Part shown: one piece after another, positions 48,097 through 64,000 of the stretch
Position numbering within the stretch: position 1 is the first letter of the stretch
Layout: each line of letters opens with the position of its first letter
Source: a virus
Length of the DNA stretch: 64,000 nucleotides
Reading direction: 5' to 3' (one strand)
IMG/VR virus record: IMGVR_UViG_3300025162_000016
Coordinates: 304,759-368,758 of that record
Translations under genes and position numbers: made by a program
Notes under the pieces: model-generated
The model's database searches: none
What the model was told of the DNA's origin: nothing
What the model saw: the letters and a program-made list of their open reading frames with translations, nothing else

Positions 48097-48246
48097 ATGA
48101 AAACACCTATATATACAAAAATTGCACAGCGAAACTGGATGGAAAAGCGAAAGAAAGCGGGATATTGCTGGGCTACTTTCTTTACCACCAAGGAGAACGT
48201 AGCTAAATTAAAGGAGTTCTACGCTGAACTCAAAAAGTCCAAATGA
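48097..48246 (+). CDS. Small TnpB-associated protein
   Basis: 49 residues, MKTPIYTKIAQRNWMEKRKK..., homologous to the 18015-17836 protein. Its TGA overlaps the ATG of the following tnpB (ATGA), so the two are translationally coupled. Likely part of the insertion element. Confidence 0.6.
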   Translation: MKTPIYTKIAQRNWMEKRKKAGYCWATFFTTKENVAKLKEFYAELKKSK

Positions 48247-49493
48247 TCCGCTCATCAAACCATACAACAAAATTTGCAAATCCTCTCAAACTAAAGAGGT
48301 TGTCCAGATTCGTTGACGAATACAGGCGAGTTGGCCAAATCATTATCGATACTATCTGGGCCAACGGTTATGACAGCTTTATTCCATTAAAGGATCAACT
48401 TAATTGCCCAAAATACCTTGACTACAATCGGTTTGACGTGGAAACAGACATTTCCCCAAGAGCAATGAGTTCGCTCACAACCCAAATATGTGCTGCCCTA
48501 TCAGCATCCACAAAAAAACGAAAGAAACTTCTATATACAAAATCCAAACTAATAGATGAAAATATACCAACAAAATCTATCGATAGACTGTTGACAAAAT
48601 ACATAATCGTAAAACCAGACTGCCGTTACATGAATCCAGAACTTAGTTCCAAATGTAGCGACATCGAATCTGGAAAATCCTTCGACTACTTTCTACGAAT
48701 AAAATGTATCGGTAAATCTTATGGTCACATAAAAATTCCACTAAAACATACCAAAATGAGCCTAAAATGGCTCAAATCAGGAAAACCACTCACATCATAT
48801 TCTTTAACTACATCTTCTATTACACTGAGGTTTGAAATTAAACCTTTACGCACAACCATTGGAACAAAGGTTATTGGTGTTGATCAAGGGATGAAAGACG
48901 TTGCTACTTGTTCTGATTCCCAAACAACCCCCAAAACCGATGCTCATGGACACTCGCTTGAATTTATAATAAACAAACTGTCAAGAAAAAAGAGGGGTAG
49001 CAGAGCATTTGAAAAAACACAGTCTCACAGAAAAAATTTTATTAATTGGTCAATCAATCAATTAAATTTTAATGATGCCAAAGAAATTCGATTGGAAAAA
49101 ATATGGAACATTGGCTACAAAAATCGAACGTCAAGAAAGCTTTCACATTGGACAAACACGTTGATTAGAGATAAAATTATTGGAAAATGCGAAGAACTGG
49201 AGGTTCCAGTCATCGAGCAGGATTCCACTTATCGTTCCCAACGTTGTTTTAATTGCGGATTGGTACGAAAAGCCAATCGGAAAGGTAAATTATACAAATG
49301 TAAGAAATGTGGGTATGAGGCGGATGCTGATTTCAATGCAAGCCTAAACCATAGTATTGATTTGCCTGATATCGATTGGCGGTTTCGTGGTAAAGGACAC
49401 AATCTAGGCAAGGGGTTCCGATGGACTCCTACCGGATTGTTCAACCTTGACGGATCGGAGCTTAGAGTCCCGGTTTCCAACAAACAAGGATAA
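48243..49493 (+). CDS. tnpB: TnpB-like RuvC nuclease, zinc-finger type
   Basis: 416 residues, a different branch from the two TnpB proteins at 18.5 and 24.1 kb. RuvC Asp in TKVIGVDQGMKDVAT (about 216), Glu in AKEIRLEKIW (about 285), zinc finger CFNCG...KCKKCG (about 339-361), final Asp in EADADFNASLN (about 365). Complete catalytic set. No tnpA nearby and no matching terminal hairpin of the CTATCCC type. Confidence 0.8.
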   Translation: MIRSSNHTTKFANPLKLKRLSRFVDEYRRVGQIIIDTIWANGYDSFIPLKDQLNCPKYLDYNRFDVETDISPRAMSSLTTQICAALSASTKKRKKLLYTKSKLIDENIPTKSIDRLLTKYIIVKPDCRYMNPELSSKCSDIESGKSFDYFLRIKCIGKSYGHIKIPLKHTKMSLKWLKSGKPLTSYSLTTSSITLRFEIKPLRTTIGTKVIGVDQGMKDVATCSDSQTTPKTDAHGHSLEFIINKLSRKKRGSRAFEKTQSHRKNFINWSINQLNFNDAKEIRLEKIWNIGYKNRTSRKLSHWTNTLIRDKIIGKCEELEVPVIEQDSTYRSQRCFNCGLVRKANRKGKLYKCKKCGYEADADFNASLNHSIDLPDIDWRFRGKGHNLGKGFRWTPTGLFNLDGSELRVPVSNKQG

Positions 49494-56862: not shown

Positions 56863-57062
56863 ATCTTTTTGTTAGCCAATTAACCTATGTTTATTAATAT
56901 TCTTCACCGGAAAAATATATTAAAACAAGCGATTTATTGACAGAATTTCACTTCGGTTGCAGTTTTAATGTTGACGCAGTGGACACCACCTACTCGTCAA
57001 CCCACAACTGTTTATTTTATTAGAACTGAAGTTACTATAGCAGAATTTCTATAAATGTCAAC
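56768..57062 (-). repeat. 295-bp inverted repeat, left arm
   Basis: Reverse complement of 63706-63999 with only a few differences. Includes promoter TTGACA/TATAGT, a GTTGACG...CGTCAAC hairpin and the MRIEIF segment. Confidence 0.8.
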
Positions 57063-57104
57063 ATTTTTCAATAAAATGTTTGCTCTTTTCTGATACTTAT
57101 AAAC

Positions 57105-57605
57105 ATGAAAACAAAATTTATATTTCTTATAATAAGTTTCTTACTGTTGGTAGGATGTAACACCGTTCCTAGTTTTACTTCTAATAATATTCTTAATTTA
57201 AGAGTGGTAGATGCTTCTCAAAACATACTGAGAGGTGGTCAACCAGATGCGAAGGGATTTATATATTTGAAATCACTTGGTATAACTAATATTATTAAAC
57301 TTAATTTAGAAGATAATGAGGATGCGGAGGCAACTGCATTAGGAATGACGGTGGTTTATATTCCTATTAACACATATGATCAGGTAATTCATTTGGAAAA
57401 GTGGAAGTTCGAGGTTGCGGTAATTGCTATAACTCCGAACACTTTCATTCATTGTGCGCATGGACAAGATCGAACTGGGTTGGTTGTAGCGGGATATAGG
57501 ATGGCGAATGGAATGTCTAAAGCAGATGCAGAAAAAGAAATGCTGGCGAATGGATTTCACAAAGAATTGATTGGGTTATGGGGATTTTTTAAAAAAATAA
57601 ATTAA
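57105..57605 (+). CDS. Dual-specificity/tyrosine-phosphatase-like lipoprotein
   Basis: 166 residues. Signal MKTKFIFLIISFLLLVGC with lipobox LVGC (Cys 18). NILRGGQPDAKGFIYLKSLG is the usual N-motif of DSP-like proteins, and HCAHGQDRTGL is the C-x5-R phosphate loop (Cys about 122). Likely a periplasmic or outer-membrane phosphatase on phosphotyrosine, phospholipid or inositol phosphates. First gene inside the inverted repeats. Confidence 0.7.
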   Translation: MKTKFIFLIISFLLLVGCNTVPSFTSNNILNLRVVDASQNILRGGQPDAKGFIYLKSLGITNIIKLNLEDNEDAEATALGMTVVYIPINTYDQVIHLEKWKFEVAVIAITPNTFIHCAHGQDRTGLVVAGYRMANGMSKADAEKEMLANGFHKELIGLWGFFKKIN

Positions 57606-57638
57606 TGATTTATCTTTTTCTGTTGATATTTAAGATAT

Positions 57639-59357
57639 ATGACAGAAAAACAATCACTCCCATCAAGCGTTTATAATTGGAAGAGACAAAAGCCAGATTC
57701 TCGTGATTATAAATTTGCAGAAATACCTTCGGTGAAACGATTAAAAGTAACAACTCCACCACCGGTTGTTAATTTACGAAAATGGTGTTCTGAAGTAGAA
57801 AATCAAAAATCTTTAGGTAGTTGTTTTACCGGCGATACTTTAATTCCTCTTTTGAATGGAAAGATAGCTACACTGAAAGAACTTACAGATGGGATGTATG
57901 GGAAAACTTTTTGGGTATATGGAAATAAAAATGGAAGAATGGTTCCTGCGTTAGCATCCGCATCTCTTACACAGTATATCGCACCCATTTATAATGTCAC
58001 ATTAGATAATGGGAGAACAATAAAATGTACTGCTGATCATCAGTTTTTGATGCGAGATGGTAATTACAAAAAAGCAATGGAATTAGTATCTGGGGATAGT
58101 TTAATGTCATTTAGAAGAAAATATAATAAATTGGGATATGAGTATGTTTTTTGCCACAGTGACCACAAATATCATCTTACACATTGGTTAGTCGGAAGTT
58201 ATATACATGATTATTCTGTTAATAAAAATGGAGTAGAAGTGATACATCATAAGGATTTTATTAAAAATAATAATACTCCGGAAAATTTGGTAGGAATGAC
58301 AATACAAGAACATTCAATATATCAAAATAAAACGGCGGAATGTAAATTAAAACGTTTTATCGCAGCGAAAAATAGATGGAAAGATATAACGCCGGAAGCT
58401 ATGAGTCGTGTTGTAGATTCCGCAGAAATACGTTTGGGGGCAGTGGGAACACGAAGTCAGATAGCAAAAACAGCAAACGAGGTATTTCTTAAATGTGGAA
58501 ATATTTCTAAAGAACAATGGGAAACGACGGACGTAACAAAACGATTTAAGTTTGAAACGGCGATGAAATATTTTGGAAACCAAGACGAGTTATTGATTGC
58601 TGCACAAAATTATAATCATAAAGTCGTATCGGTCATTAATAGTAATACATCCGAAGATGTTTATTGTCTCACGGTACCAGATACTCAAAATTTTGCACTT
58701 AATGATGGAGTTTATGTTCATAATTGTACCGGCCAGGCGTGGGTGGGTTTAATGGAGTGGCATGAGAATTTCATGGGAAGAGGAGGAAAGGCATTTCAAA
58801 ATCTTAGTCGGTTGTTTGTTTATTATAATGAACGGGAACTTGAAGGAACCATCAATGAGGATGCCGGTGCCGAATTAAGAAGTGGAGCAAAAGCATTGGC
58901 TACGTGGGGGGTTTGTTATGAAAAAAGTTGGCCTTATAACATTGATACTTTCACACAAAAACCAAGTCCAATATGTTATCAGGATGGAGCTATTCATAAA
59001 ATTAATAGTTATTATTCTATCAGTACATTTAATCATCTTAAAATGTGTTTGGCAAACAATTTGCCGGTGGTATTTGGATTTATGGTATATTCGAGTTTTG
59101 ATTCCGATGTGGTTGCTAAAACCGGTATAGCTTCTATGCCAGATATTAAAAACGAGGAATTGCTGGGGGGACACGCCGCAATGATTGTGGGATATAATAA
59201 TTATGAGAAGCGATTTTTAGTAAGAAATTCGTGGGGGAAAAATTGGGGACTTAAAGGAATTAATGCCGGTTATTTTACGCTTCCCTACGATTATGTGGCT
59301 AATCCCAATCTTGCCAGTGATTTTTGGACGGTGGTTCGTATTGTCGAAGACGCATGA
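57639..59357 (+). CDS. Papain-like (C1) protease interrupted by an intein
   Basis: 572 residues as translated. N-extein residues 1-61 end NQKSLGS; the intein is residues 62-362; the C-extein starts CTGQAWVGLMEW. After splicing the site reads GS-C-TGQA, so intein residue +1 is the catalytic Cys. His is in LGGHAAMIVGY, Asn in RNSWGKNWG. The mature enzyme (about 271 residues) is the size of a papain catalytic domain and lacks a signal peptide. Neighbouring YiiX-like gene overlaps its stop. Confidence 0.8.
   Translation: MTEKQSLPSSVYNWKRQKPDSRDYKFAEIPSVKRLKVTTPPPVVNLRKWCSEVENQKSLGSCFTGDTLIPLLNGKIATLKELTDGMYGKTFWVYGNKNGRMVPALASASLTQYIAPIYNVTLDNGRTIKCTADHQFLMRDGNYKKAMELVSGDSLMSFRRKYNKLGYEYVFCHSDHKYHLTHWLVGSYIHDYSVNKNGVEVIHHKDFIKNNNTPENLVGMTIQEHSIYQNKTAECKLKRFIAAKNRWKDITPEAMSRVVDSAEIRLGAVGTRSQIAKTANEVFLKCGNISKEQWETTDVTKRFKFETAMKYFGNQDELLIAAQNYNHKVVSVINSNTSEDVYCLTVPDTQNFALNDGVYVHNCTGQAWVGLMEWHENFMGRGGKAFQNLSRLFVYYNERELEGTINEDAGAELRSGAKALATWGVCYEKSWPYNIDTFTQKPSPICYQDGAIHKINSYYSISTFNHLKMCLANNLPVVFGFMVYSSFDSDVVAKTGIASMPDIKNEELLGGHAAMIVGYNNYEKRFLVRNSWGKNWGLKGINAGYFTLPYDYVANPNLASDFWTVVRIVEDA
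57822..58724 (+). mobile_element. Intein with HNH-type homing endonuclease
   Basis: Starts CFTGDTLIPLLNG (block A), has a TADHQFL block B (about 40 codons later than the first beta strands), an internal HNH segment VEVIHHKDFIKNNNTPENLV, and ends TQNFALNDGVYVHN before Cys +1 (blocks F, G). All splicing residues (Cys1, His, Asn-terminal, Cys+1) are present. Confidence 0.85.
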
Positions 59358-59893
59358 AAATAGCGTTTTATAAAGGAACTAGTTGGTTTAGTAAAGCAAT
59401 CATGCGAATTTCCCGTGGGGGTTATTCTCATGCGGCGGTTCAATTAAACGACGGAACCATTGTTGAAGCGGGTGTAAAAAATGGGGTATGTCTGAGAAAA
59501 AGTTTATTGGACGACGTGGATATTAATACTACGGTCGATGTATTTGATGTTCAAACTACGCCGGAAGAAGATGAAATTATTTGTGATTTCTTGATTCGAC
59601 AAATGGGGAAGGGGTATGATTTCTGGAATATAATTGGGTTTGTATTATATTCATCTAAAGAAGGAAGAAAAGGATATGATCGGTGGTTTTGTAGTGAATT
59701 GGTAGTGGCGGCTTTTCGACAAGCCGGAATCAATCTACTCACACGAGTTGACGCATGGAAAATATCACCCACGATTTTATCTTATAGTCCTCTCCTAAAA
59801 AGCGGACAGAGAATGCAGATTACAAAAAGTAAACGATTCGGTGGCATAAAACACTCAAATTCAATACATACGACAACTGAAAACTTAGGATAA
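59354..59893 (+). CDS. YiiX/YaeF-like NlpC-P60 permuted hydrolase
   Basis: 179 residues from ATG 59354, in ATGA overlap with the protease gene. GTSWFSKAIMRISRGGYSHA (His), DGTIVEAG, a long helix region, then RWFCSELVVAAFRQAG (Cys) follow the permuted NlpC/P60 order. Expected to cleave amide or thioester bonds (peptidoglycan or lipid-linked). Coupled to the intein-bearing protease. Confidence 0.65.
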   Translation: MKIAFYKGTSWFSKAIMRISRGGYSHAAVQLNDGTIVEAGVKNGVCLRKSLLDDVDINTTVDVFDVQTTPEEDEIICDFLIRQMGKGYDFWNIIGFVLYSSKEGRKGYDRWFCSELVVAAFRQAGINLLTRVDAWKISPTILSYSPLLKSGQRMQITKSKRFGGIKHSNSIHTTTENLG

Positions 59894-59976
59894 TAGTTTA
59901 TTTGCGGGCACAAGGACATCATTTTAATGGTTTTTGAATAATTTGAACTATTTATAGGATGAACTATAGATAAAAT

Positions 59977-61368
59977 ATGCATATCATTACACCGTATAAT
60001 CCGTGGGCTCCTAAAAAGAAAAAAACTTGGCAGGAAGAGTTGTGGGAACAGCAAACCATTGCGGAGGCTGAAGCAAGAATGTTAGCAGAAGCTAGTAGCA
60101 GGACATTACCCAATAATTCTCCTAATACTTCAATGGCAACGGTTGGACCAATGGCAAATACTATGGCAGGCGGTGGCGGTAAACCCGTTTATGCATTTTT
60201 TAGCGCCGGTTCAGACGTGGTAAATTTCGATCGGAGTCCTGCTAGTGGAGATGGCCCAGTCACGGTCAATTTTATAAATTTAACTACAACTCCTCAGTTC
60301 GATTCATATAAATGGAGATTTAGTGATAATACTACTAGTACGGATGTAAATCCGGTTCATATATTTCAAAGCGGAAGTACTAATTCAACCATTTATATCG
60401 CATCGTTGGAAGTAAGTAATTCTGTAACCGGTGCGCCGGGTGGAAGAAGTCCAGATGTTTTTATTGTGGTAGGAGTTCCTAGTGTAACTGCCAGTTATAC
60501 GTATACAACTACATCCAAGGTAGCGCCTTTCTCGGCGTCGTTTACTAATACTTCGATTAATACAAGTCAAACAAAAACGACTTCGTATGTTTGGATAATC
60601 AAAAACGACAATAATACATACACGTCTACGGCGACCGATTTTGAGGTTAGAATTGATAGTGGAAGTGTTACCGCATCGCTCGGAATGACTGGATCGTATG
60701 GATTAACTAGTTTGACTAATTCAATGTTTAAGGCGGCAGCACCCACATTATTAGTATCCTACACCGTGGTCACTTCGTCTAAATATGCTCCCGCTAATGT
60801 AACGTTATCAAGTTCATATAGCTATACCGGAATCGGAACTCTTAGTGGACTCTGGCGTGAAGGAGAGTATCAGGAAAATGGCACGGAATATGTGGTTGGA
60901 TATCCCGGTGCAAAAGTTATTGGGCCGGAAGTTTTCAATACGAAATCGATTTCGGGCGGTGATGGAAAATTCACCTCATCATTAGCAATTACTGAGTCTA
61001 TATACGGAATTACCGCTTTCTATACTCAGAGTTTCCAGCTTAAATTGCCAACGTTGGAACTGTCATTCGTCACTCGTTCATTTGGTAACGGTGGAATAGA
61101 GAATTCTTATATGGAGCCGGTTTCAATGTCGTACACTTCGAGTATCGTTACGGAAGGTATGTATGGGGCGAATTACACATTCCTTTGGGATTTCGGTGCG
61201 GCAAGTTTCACAAACTCTCAAGGAGTTTATGCTGGGACTGCAACAACTCAAGGACCGCATTTCCGATCTGATTATGCTCCCGGTTCATACACGGCATCAC
61301 TGGAAGTTACATCGAGCATTTATGGATTGTCGGTGAGATCAACTCAAAGTTTCGTTGTCGGATCTTAA
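59977..61368 (+). CDS. PKD/Ig-like repeat protein
   Basis: 463 residues, Ser/Thr-rich. Residues 60-160 read as a PKD-type domain (VNFINLTTTPQFDSYKWRFS, NPVHIF, YIASLEV). Three further Ig-like units repeat a YTASLEVTSSIYGL-type strand. No signal peptide; it starts MHIITPYNPWAPKKKKTWQE. Likely a virion surface or tail-decoration protein. Confidence 0.65.
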   Translation: MHIITPYNPWAPKKKKTWQEELWEQQTIAEAEARMLAEASSRTLPNNSPNTSMATVGPMANTMAGGGGKPVYAFFSAGSDVVNFDRSPASGDGPVTVNFINLTTTPQFDSYKWRFSDNTTSTDVNPVHIFQSGSTNSTIYIASLEVSNSVTGAPGGRSPDVFIVVGVPSVTASYTYTTTSKVAPFSASFTNTSINTSQTKTTSYVWIIKNDNNTYTSTATDFEVRIDSGSVTASLGMTGSYGLTSLTNSMFKAAAPTLLVSYTVVTSSKYAPANVTLSSSYSYTGIGTLSGLWREGEYQENGTEYVVGYPGAKVIGPEVFNTKSISGGDGKFTSSLAITESIYGITAFYTQSFQLKLPTLELSFVTRSFGNGGIENSYMEPVSMSYTSSIVTEGMYGANYTFLWDFGAASFTNSQGVYAGTATTQGPHFRSDYAPGSYTASLEVTSSIYGLSVRSTQSFVVGS

Positions 61369-61396
61369 TTTAAACACTCATTATAAAATCAAAGAC

Positions 61397-61431
61397 AAGG
61401 CGTTAGTAAAATAACGCCTTTTCTTTTTTGT
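61397..61431 (+). terminator. Rho-independent terminator
   Basis: AAGGCGTTA / TAACGCCTT stem and TTCTTTTTT. Confidence 0.85.
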
Positions 61432-61446
61432 AACATAATCGTAACA
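61429..61446 (+). promoter_or_regulatory. Pho-box-like direct repeat
   Basis: TGTAACA-TAAT-CGTAACA: two 7-bp direct repeats separated by 4 bp, the spacing of PhoB sites, upstream of an outer-membrane protein and pstS. Sequence resembles but does not equal the enteric CTGTCAT half-site. Confidence 0.5.
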
Positions 61447-61499
61447 TAGATTCATCAATTTCGTTTGCGGTTCTTCATAGTTATTTGCAAATTAAAATT

Positions 61500-62186
61500 A
61501 TGATGAAAAATCTAAAAGTATATGTTTATGTCGCCGCCCTGATCATGGTCGGTGTTTTTAATGTTAATGCTCAAACTAATGTTGTATCAACGGGTTCCAC
61601 AAATAAACCTGTACATAAAACATTTAAAACCTTTGATTTGAGTAATTTCGTCTTTACAGTTGAAAACGAGTTCCGTGCTAAAGACACGGGCACCTCCTTC
61701 TTCTATGAACATAATGATATTCAAGCTAAATATCTTTTGATAGACAAATATTTTGATATCTTCACTGATTATCGACTTATTTTTAAAAACAGTGCCGAAG
61801 GTAATAATTGGAAAAATCAAAGTATGTTTCTTGAAGGCTTTAATATAAAATATCCCGAACAAACGTGGGGTAAAATTAACCTCCGTCAACGACTTGAAAT
61901 TGGACTGAACCATGCTCCTACAAAAGACACTTATCAGTGGAATGTGTTTCCCAAATATAATACCCCATGGAAACTTACTAAATATGAAATCAATCCATTC
62001 GTAGCCGATGAATCCTTCTTTGACACCCAGCAATCTATGGGCTTTGTAAAAAATCGAGTCTATGCTGGTATAGATTATAAGTTTACTCCCAAAATCAAAG
62101 GTGGTACTTGGTACTACTATGAAACCGCTGCTCATTCATCATCAACCGCAAATGTCCTCGTTACCCAGATTAAATTCGAATTTTAA
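61500..62186 (+). CDS. Outer-membrane beta-barrel protein
   Basis: 228 residues from ATG 61500. Signal peptide MMKNLKVYVYVAALIMVGVF...NAQ, then alternating strands, Trp/Tyr girdle, and C-terminal KFEF with final Phe, the usual Bam signal. Resembles small porin-like barrels. Sits 6 bp before pstS and behind the Pho-box-like repeat, so a phosphate-related pore is a reasonable inference. Confidence 0.6.
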   Translation: MMKNLKVYVYVAALIMVGVFNVNAQTNVVSTGSTNKPVHKTFKTFDLSNFVFTVENEFRAKDTGTSFFYEHNDIQAKYLLIDKYFDIFTDYRLIFKNSAEGNNWKNQSMFLEGFNIKYPEQTWGKINLRQRLEIGLNHAPTKDTYQWNVFPKYNTPWKLTKYEINPFVADESFFDTQQSMGFVKNRVYAGIDYKFTPKIKGGTWYYYETAAHSSSTANVLVTQIKFEF

Positions 62187-62192
62187 ATTAAT

Positions 62193-63068
62193 ATGAAATA
62201 TCTTTTTATAAGTGCTATTCTCAGTCTGTTAATGGTAGGTTGTAATAAATCTAATAACATCGTGACAACCCCAACCACTACCATCCAAGTAAAAGGCTCA
62301 GATACAATGGTTAATCTGGCTCAAGCATGGGCAGAAGAATATGTAAAAACAAATCCTGCCATCAATGTGGAGGTTTGTGGCGGCGGGTCTGGTGTTGGTA
62401 TTGCTGCCCTCGAAAAGGGAATCATTGATATAGCGAATAGTAGCCGTAATATGAAACCCGACGAAATTGATGCTACTAAAAAAATAACAGGTAAGTTACC
62501 AGTGGAGTTCGTAGTCGGTTATGACGCTCTTGGTGTATATGTTCATATTGATAATCCCATTAATGAAATTACCATCGAACAACTCGCCCAAATCTATGTG
62601 GCAAATGGTAAAATTAATAAATGGTCGGATATTGGTATCAAAATTCCCAATGGAGAAGATAACATTGTCCTCGTCAATAGACAATCTAGTTCGGGAACAT
62701 ATGAGTTCTTCAGAGAACATGTTCTAAACAAAAAAGACTTCCGCCTCGGTTCGAGGGATATGAATGGTTCAAAAGAAGTGGTTGAATTAGTTTCATTTAC
62801 AAAAGCCGCTATCGGCTATAGTGGTATGGGGTATAATATACCGGGAAAAGTAAAAATGTTGAAAATAGCTAAAGCTGCCGGTATCCCATCCGTCGAACCT
62901 ACAATGATAAATGCATTAAATAAATCATACCCTCTATCTCGTTCACTATTATGTTATACTCTAGGAGAACCCGCTGGTGAACTGAAAAAATATCTTGATT
63001 GGTGCGTATCTCCTCCCGGTCAAAAAATAGTAGAACAAACGGGATATGTTCCACTCCCAATTAAATGA
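62193..63068 (+). CDS. pstS: PstS-like phosphate-binding lipoprotein
   Basis: 291 residues. Lipobox LLMVGC (Cys 17), then IQVKGSDTMVNLAQAWAEEY, NVEVCGGGSGVGIAALEKGI, IANSSRNMK, and VNRQSSSGTYEFFREHVL: the phosphate-contact loops of PstS. Only the binding protein is present, without pstCAB, as in phages that boost host phosphate uptake. Operon with the barrel gene. Confidence 0.85.
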   Translation: MKYLFISAILSLLMVGCNKSNNIVTTPTTTIQVKGSDTMVNLAQAWAEEYVKTNPAINVEVCGGGSGVGIAALEKGIIDIANSSRNMKPDEIDATKKITGKLPVEFVVGYDALGVYVHIDNPINEITIEQLAQIYVANGKINKWSDIGIKIPNGEDNIVLVNRQSSSGTYEFFREHVLNKKDFRLGSRDMNGSKEVVELVSFTKAAIGYSGMGYNIPGKVKMLKIAKAAGIPSVEPTMINALNKSYPLSRSLLCYTLGEPAGELKKYLDWCVSPPGQKIVEQTGYVPLPIK

Positions 63069-63113
63069 GCGGCAATTATCATTTTGTTTCTATTTATTTT
63101 GAAGGAAGCAGAA

Positions 63114-63140
63114 AACCCATCTGCTTCCAGCGGATGGGAT
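63114..63140. repeat. IS605-like terminal hairpin remnant
   Basis: ACCCATCTGC...GCGGATGGGAT, matching the style of the 23986 left end. Confidence 0.4.
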
Positions 63141-63278
63141 GAATGCGACCCATTGAAAAATAGTTTGATGTTTCTCATTTCTCAAAAATATATATTCTTG
63201 TAGAAAGCAATCTTCGGATTAGCATTCTCAAGGGCTGGAAGAGTCCTATAGAAACTCTAATGTTAGAGACAAGTGGAA

Positions 63279-63302
63279 ACCCACTTGCTTTAGCGGGTGG
63301 GT
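63279..63302. repeat. IS605-like terminal hairpin remnant
   Basis: ACCCACTTGCTTTAGCGGGTGGGT preceded by GTGGAA, like the left end GGAAACCCCG...GCTTTAGC at 23981. The transposase genes are gone. Confidence 0.5.
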
Positions 63303-63313
63303 ACTTCATAAAT

Positions 63314-63688
63314 ATGATTAAACTAAAAGATATTTTGTTTGAGCTTATTGATAAGAATGCGATATTATATTTAGGATGGGTTAAACGCAATAACCATGAT
63401 GTTATGGGAATGGACATTCAGTCTGGGGAGGATGAGACGCATCATAATTATATGCTCGGATTGCCTCCGGAATGGAGAAATGAATTTGATAGTAATTTAT
63501 TGAGATGGAGATATCGAAAAGATATTAATATTGTCTATTGGTGGGAGTTTGGTAATCCAACCGATGACGAGAAAGAGGCGGTAGAACACTGGATTGAAAA
63601 AAAATTAAATCAAAAAAATCCTTCTCATAAAATTATTCCTACCGATAAAAATAATATGACTTTTTGGAAATCTCATGGAGAAGATTAA
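63314..63688 (+). CDS. Hypothetical protein
   Basis: 124 residues from ATG 63314. The start MIKLKDILFELIDKNAILYL resembles the N-terminal peptide MIIKLNEIKSVIRELLLELF of the 49771 protein; the rest is acidic with many Trp. Possibly shares a targeting or capsid-associated leader. Unknown. Confidence 0.5.
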   Translation: MIKLKDILFELIDKNAILYLGWVKRNNHDVMGMDIQSGEDETHHNYMLGLPPEWRNEFDSNLLRWRYRKDINIVYWWEFGNPTDDEKEAVEHWIEKKLNQKNPSHKIIPTDKNNMTFWKSHGED

Positions 63689-63705
63689 CAATGTCAAATT
63701 TTGAT

Positions 63706-63999
63706 GTTGACATTTATAGAAATTCTGCTATAGTAATTCCAGTTCTAATAAAATAAACAGTTGTGGGTTGACGAGTAGGTGGTGTCCACTGCGTCAACAT
63801 TAAAACTGCAACCGAAGTGAAATTCTGTCAAAAAATCGCTTGTTTTAATATATTTTTCCGGTGAAGAATATTAATAAACATAGGTTAATTGACTAACAAA
63901 AAGATGAGAATAGAAATATTCCAGCACGGAGTTTATAGTCCCGAGTGTTTTAAAAACCTAAATTTAGCGAGAATAAATTTCAATAGAACAGGTAACTAT
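63706..63999 (+). repeat. 295-bp inverted repeat, right arm
   Basis: Inverted copy of 56768-57062; starts GTTGACATTTATAG and ends GGTAACTAT at the window edge. Confidence 0.8.
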
Positions 64000-64000
64000 C
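63904..64000 (+). CDS. MRIEIF-family ORF (copy D, runs off the window)
   Basis: MRIEIFQHGVYSPECFKNLN... through NRTGNY, intact start and frame, cut by the window end. No CRISPR repeat has appeared by the last base. Confidence 0.55.
   Translation, partial: MRIEIFQHGVYSPECFKNLNLARINFNRTGNY

Follow-up and report, generated by a model that had tools for sequence, protein, structure and literature searches.

Why does an intein interrupt a phage protease directly in front of its catalytic cysteine, and does it serve to control the enzyme or only live in its gene? The window analysed here is the terminal 64 kb (positions 304759-368758) of a virus record 368,758 bases long. The original prediction placed an intein at 57822-58724 within a papain-family protease, took the residue following the intein as the protease nucleophile and saw in this arrangement the post-translational control of a toxic enzyme.

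The features of the locus are summarised in the table. The precursor is read through 572 codons with no internal stop. Profile searches place PF14890 (Intein_splicing) at residues 69-362 (E=3.5e-22), TIGR01445 (intein_Nterm) from residue 62 onwards (5.7e-10) and TIGR01443 (intein_Cterm) up to residue 363 (3e-7). PF00112 (Peptidase_C1, 1.1e-10) is matched within the final 150 residues. The Hint/intein splicing blocks A, B, F and G lie in frame with the exteins. Residue 1 of the intein is the nucleophile Cys62 (57822-57824), the TxxH of block B reads T131-A-D-H134 (Thr 58029, His 58038) and block F reads EDVYC. The intein ends in His-Asn (H361-N362, 58719-58724), followed by Cys363 at +1. An uninterrupted frame with complete intein motifs is not a chance reading. 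With Cys1, T-A-D-H, the VYC of block F, His-Asn and Cys+1 in place, the intein should splice by the ordinary class 1 route. According to the intein and C1 profiles the boundaries predicted beforehand are exact to the base.

Table. Features of the protease locus in the window.
Feature	Position	Strand	Basis
Precursor gene, xylellain-type C1 peptidase interrupted by intein	57639..59357	+	ORF, 572 aa; PF00112, PF14890; PDB 3OIS
N-extein, 61 aa, C-terminal end ...ENQKSLGS, contains oxyanion-hole Gln56 (57804-57806)	57639..57821	+	Gln56 invariant in 40 aligned homologues; empty-site homologues
Intein, class 1, 301 aa, Cys62 to Asn362	57822..58724	+	intein profiles, alignments
HNH endonuclease core within intein (HH 58245-58250, Asn 58272, His 58311)	58230..58316	+	PF13392, phrog_59, alignments, model
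C-extein, 210 aa, first residue predicted catalytic Cys363 (58725-58727)	58725..59354	+	40-row alignment; model
Next gene, C92/YaeF-like permuted papain-like amidase	59354..59893	+	PF05708 2e-5, phrog_1128 1.3e-30
Repeat stretch, 7,102 bases, same as the first 7,102 of the contig	56899..64000		0 mismatches; contains whole protease gene

The closest solved relative in a sequence search against the PDB is xylellain (3OIS, E 3.6e-42), with the match starting around Cys363. Gln56, Cys363, His512 (59172-59174) and Asn530 (59226-59228) are invariant in a 40-row alignment of homologues and correspond to the Gln, Cys, His and Asn of the papain family, whereby His512 and Asn530 complete the predicted catalytic triad. 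W532 is likewise invariant. The precursor was modelled with AlphaFold2 (mean pLDDT 77.2); the model has a helix that begins at Cys363, as in papain. Both exteins together superpose on xylellain (Z 33.2, rmsd 2.3, 251 residues) and are predicted to form a near-native fold around the intein. The structure-search matches comprise the C1 fold only; they bear on the protease and say nothing on the intein part.

The intein-free site reads VYDQGQLGSCTANG in a homologue from a viral contig, IYDQGDLGSCTANA in a homologue from a 595-kb phage and VFDQDQLGSCTANA in the homologue of Burkholderia phage FLC9. A further 163 loci were taken from viral contigs and bacterial genomes; nearly all could be read at the insertion point, and none is interrupted there. 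Altogether about 160 homologues, including the 7 nearest viral ones, show the empty-site pattern Q...LGSCT and are continuous through the insertion point, so that the intein-free relatives called for by the original prediction do exist. Together with the invariance in 40 rows and the xylellain-like model they support Cys363 as the protease nucleophile, as had been claimed. In the folded model this cysteine occupies the catalytic position, judging from the helix start and the superposition. The protein is assigned to the xylellain-type C1 peptidases, with predicted proteolytic activity.

The intein parts the oxyanion-hole Gln56 from Cys363 by 301 residues. Hence the precursor is expected to be inactive, and the anatomy implies that splicing must precede protease activity. 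Hint domains are generally capable of cleaving rather than splicing. A cleavage of the bacterial-intein-like kind would free the C-extein, whose first residue would then be the catalytic Cys. This is extremely unlikely here, as the full class 1 motifs including His-Asn-Cys are in place and the extein is conserved on either side of the intein. Moreover a free C-extein would be devoid of part of the active site, given that Gln56 sits in the N-extein.

The requirement of splicing for a complete active site would also suit a zymogen lock, in which slow or conditional splicing (responding to redox, metal, temperature or infection stage) times the onset of a harmful protease. In favour of a lock, a redox response is conceivable in principle for any class 1 intein that has cysteines at both position 1 and +1. 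The redox sensing described for the DnaB intein (PMC6195587) points the same way, as do the precursor accumulation and slowed splicing of other phage inteins (PMC5050341). However, the splicing residues are canonical in every complete intein found at this site (see below) and give no hint of slow or conditional splicing, and the 7 nearest viral homologues manage without an intein, as do members of the protease family fused into an endolysin in some phages. In addition inteins infest this phage genome generally, in unrelated genes, and nothing indicates that the protease is toxic. We therefore regard a lock as very unlikely, and post-translational control of a toxic protease is the part of the original prediction that we do not uphold.

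Viral contigs were searched for further cases using the junction pattern VHN^CT(A/G)xA and two profile scans, taking the best 80 hits of each scan. At least 10 more inteins reside at the same catalytic Cys, at least 4 of them HNH-type (L184, L185, L186, L187) and at least 6 LAGLIDADG-type (L178, L188, L193, L194, L196, L197). Duplicate contigs were counted once (L177=L188, L180=L185, L181=L186, L192=L178). The junction pattern matched six stretches, four of them real (L177, L178, L180, L181) and two unrelated (L179, L182). A match of LR756508 to a sister intein turned out to be the intein of a portal gene, and GXN1, a DNA polymerase, was dropped as well. The L197 intein runs past the contig end, with its C-terminal junction outside the contig. 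Relatives close to the whole precursor or to the lone intein were not found in viral contigs by single-sequence search, which may have passed over very near records.

Among the LAGLIDADG cases, the C-extein of L194 matches xylellain at 9e-4, and for L178 the match is to annotated C1 peptidases (3e-11). A single-sequence search against the PDB gave no C1 peptidase match for the C-exteins of L178 and L193, and neither did a Pfam scan for that of L196; L193 and L196 were placed among C1 proteases by alignment. The 595-kb phage LR756511 carries two differing intein-free C1 peptidases (L191:1779-2615 and L008:4860-5645), one of which resembles the protease of the window and the other that of L178.

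The four HNH-type inteins are 36-59% identical among themselves and with the window intein. The LAGLIDADG-type inteins show 41-54% mutual identity and about 15% against the HNH set, while their host exteins are mostly only 19-33% identical. Such a pattern, with inteins far more alike than their exteins, is what lateral movement into a homologous site would be expected to leave. Judged by sequence, one C1 catalytic site is occupied by two intein types. One might argue that phages retained both endonuclease classes at the C1 Cys because a switch at the nucleophile is useful to them in a protease without inhibitory propeptide. We give this idea little credence.

The scattered occurrence is also reflected in the C-extein tree, which held seven intein-bearing rows (those then known). 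Intein presence changes state 6 times on this tree, with at least 4 changes forced by well-supported branches. The window extein falls into a clade of 8 (SH-aLRT 99), the other 7 rows of which are intein-free. The AU test rejects neither one common origin of all the inteins at the C1 site (p 0.33) nor one of the HNH-type set (p 0.43), the splicing-domain trees being weakly resolved. Owing to this poor resolution the count of separate invasions is not fixed.

The original prediction also assumed a nested HNH segment that makes the intein mobile, and the core of such a segment is indeed present. Scanned alone, the intein matches HNH_3 (PF13392) with E 1.5e-5 and 25.0 bits, just over the cut-off of 24.8, whereas the whole precursor stays just below it with 23.7 bits. 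In addition an HNH endonuclease profile, phrog_59, is matched at 1.7e-7. An alignment of three C1-site inteins shows no variation at the core residues, which also line up when all five are compared, and the AlphaFold2 model shows a beta-beta-alpha arrangement. The catalytic His, Asn and His of the motif are found, with His203, His204, Asn212, Asn216 and His225 retained.

With 301 aa the window intein is shorter than its four HNH-type sisters (380-410 aa). The alignment reveals that 80-110 residues which follow the HNH core in the sisters are absent. Its endonuclease may thus have decayed, and the intein would be a relic that still splices and persists since precise loss is rare. That among the close relatives searched no second intein occupies the C1 site fits such a history. 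The retained HNH residues speak against it, and an HNH-type intein of comparable size (312 aa) occurs in the ribonucleotide reductase of a phage, an unrelated gene; hence the short form is no proof of decay and need not be dead. We consider a relic a serious possibility, though somewhat less likely than not, and the intein may or may not still be mobile.

A look at the remaining genome places the protease intein in a broader context. The phage, with a unit length of about 362 kb, harbours about 15 inteins. Four are found in a ribonucleotide reductase ORF and two in the portal protein. The terminase large subunit has three (one split), while a prohead-protease-like, a RecA-like and a radical-SAM protein, two glycosyltransferases and the C1 protease have one each. 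For about 12 of these inteins N- or C-terminal motif matches lie over the threshold. By comparison, 3 inteins per genome in crAss-like phages are part of a density termed 'unprecedented', which is far fewer than here. Given about 15 inteins in the genome, the one in the protease needs no special reason.

The terminase gene is apparently fractured (L214:2561-3160, L208:623-2071 and L208:2068-5499; G000:C1 about 60560-66000). In the N-part the LVLDE motif is followed straight away by a short intein-N piece, with which this part ends. The gap holds a 483-aa ORF with the appearance of a homing endonuclease, followed by an intein-C piece and the remaining terminase with two more inteins. Such an arrangement resembles a split intein whose two halves flank a separate gene.

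The protease gene itself is present in the record as two identical copies due to the 7,102-base repeat, which represents either true terminal redundancy or an assembly overlap of a circular map. Directly upstream of it lies a lipoprotein-like dual-specificity/tyrosine phosphatase (57105-57605). The window further contains a PstS-like phosphate-binding protein (62193-63068, PF12849 1e-37), an auxiliary metabolic gene, and a TnpB/Cas12f-like protein (48243-49493, PF07282 2e-14). Neighbours of C1 protease loci include a capsid gene (L024), a head-tail adaptor match (L185) and a C92 gene (L051), which does not settle the function. In Alicyclobacillus phage MMB025 (L010:3827-6091) an intein-free C1 domain starts a 754-aa protein annotated as endolysin, a hint at a lytic role for some of the phage C1 peptidases.

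Taking all lines of evidence into account, the element is very probably a class 1 cis-splicing intein with an HNH core that inserted selfishly just before the catalytic-Cys codon of a phage xylellain-type peptidase. An HNH-type intein would have entered the peptidase gene directly before the Cys363 codon. After translation Cys62 would form the first thioester, Cys363 would then receive the N-extein, and cyclisation of Asn362 would release the intein. The active-site loop GS-CTGQ would thereby be restored with no scar. Most likely the insert was both gained and maintained as a selfish element. The insertion point is among the most conserved of the family and hence offers a stable homing target, while imprecise loss or mutation of Cys+1 would kill the enzyme, which would favour retention of the intein. 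Splicing, inactivity of the precursor and arrival by homing are what we infer from the sequence. The site looks like a favoured niche of a parasite rather than a purpose-built safety catch.

Intein maps would accordingly gain the nucleophile of the papain family as a site, used by two endonuclease classes in at least 11 viral genes. A single sulphur atom would serve splicing first and the protease second. As an example of movement into a single conserved site of very diverged hosts, the contrast between intein and extein identity is a strong one. Moreover the locus provides a clean natural case for the question whether active-site inteins are merely hidden parasites or usable as zymogen locks. 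No report on inteins in C1/papain-like proteases was found in the open-access literature, a search that left out most subscription papers. The papain-family nucleophile is thus apparently an undescribed, repeatedly used intein insertion site.

Both components have known counterparts. Tailed phages acquired xylellain-type peptidase genes (PMC10380794). Xylellain (3OIS) shares the fold and the Q...C / H / N machinery, with 38% identity over the aligned fold. In contrast to the window protease, xylellain and the short bacterial and phage C1A peptidases are without intein, and inteins are unmentioned in that survey. It is also established that phage proteins can harbour inteins within catalytic motifs, with lateral transfer and effects on splicing rate (PMC5050341). 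The mycobacteriophage inteins of TerL, TOPRIM and thymidylate synthase described there are likewise class 1, carry homing endonucleases and reside in catalytic motifs. As here, their distribution is scattered and related inteins sit in unrelated-looking exteins. Their exteins are mostly DNA-related, unlike the protease of the window; the word 'protease' occurs once in that text and 'peptidase' never. The same paper also lists a reference (Wang and Liu 1997) to the intein in chloroplast ClpP of Chlamydomonas eugametos. This intein likewise lies in a protease gene, but ClpP is a serine protease and differs in fold from the C1 protease. The best named intein match is NCBIfam NF052663 (RtcB_rel_intein2, 171 bits, residues 61-366), with an unrelated extein and a score far under the whole-protein cut-off of 1050 bits. 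Finally, the HNH inteins of Bacillus phage SP-15, of the Aphanizomenon phage CL131 dCTP deaminase and of Bernardetia gyrB show the same architecture at about 28-33% identity, but their exteins and insertion sites differ from those of the window intein.
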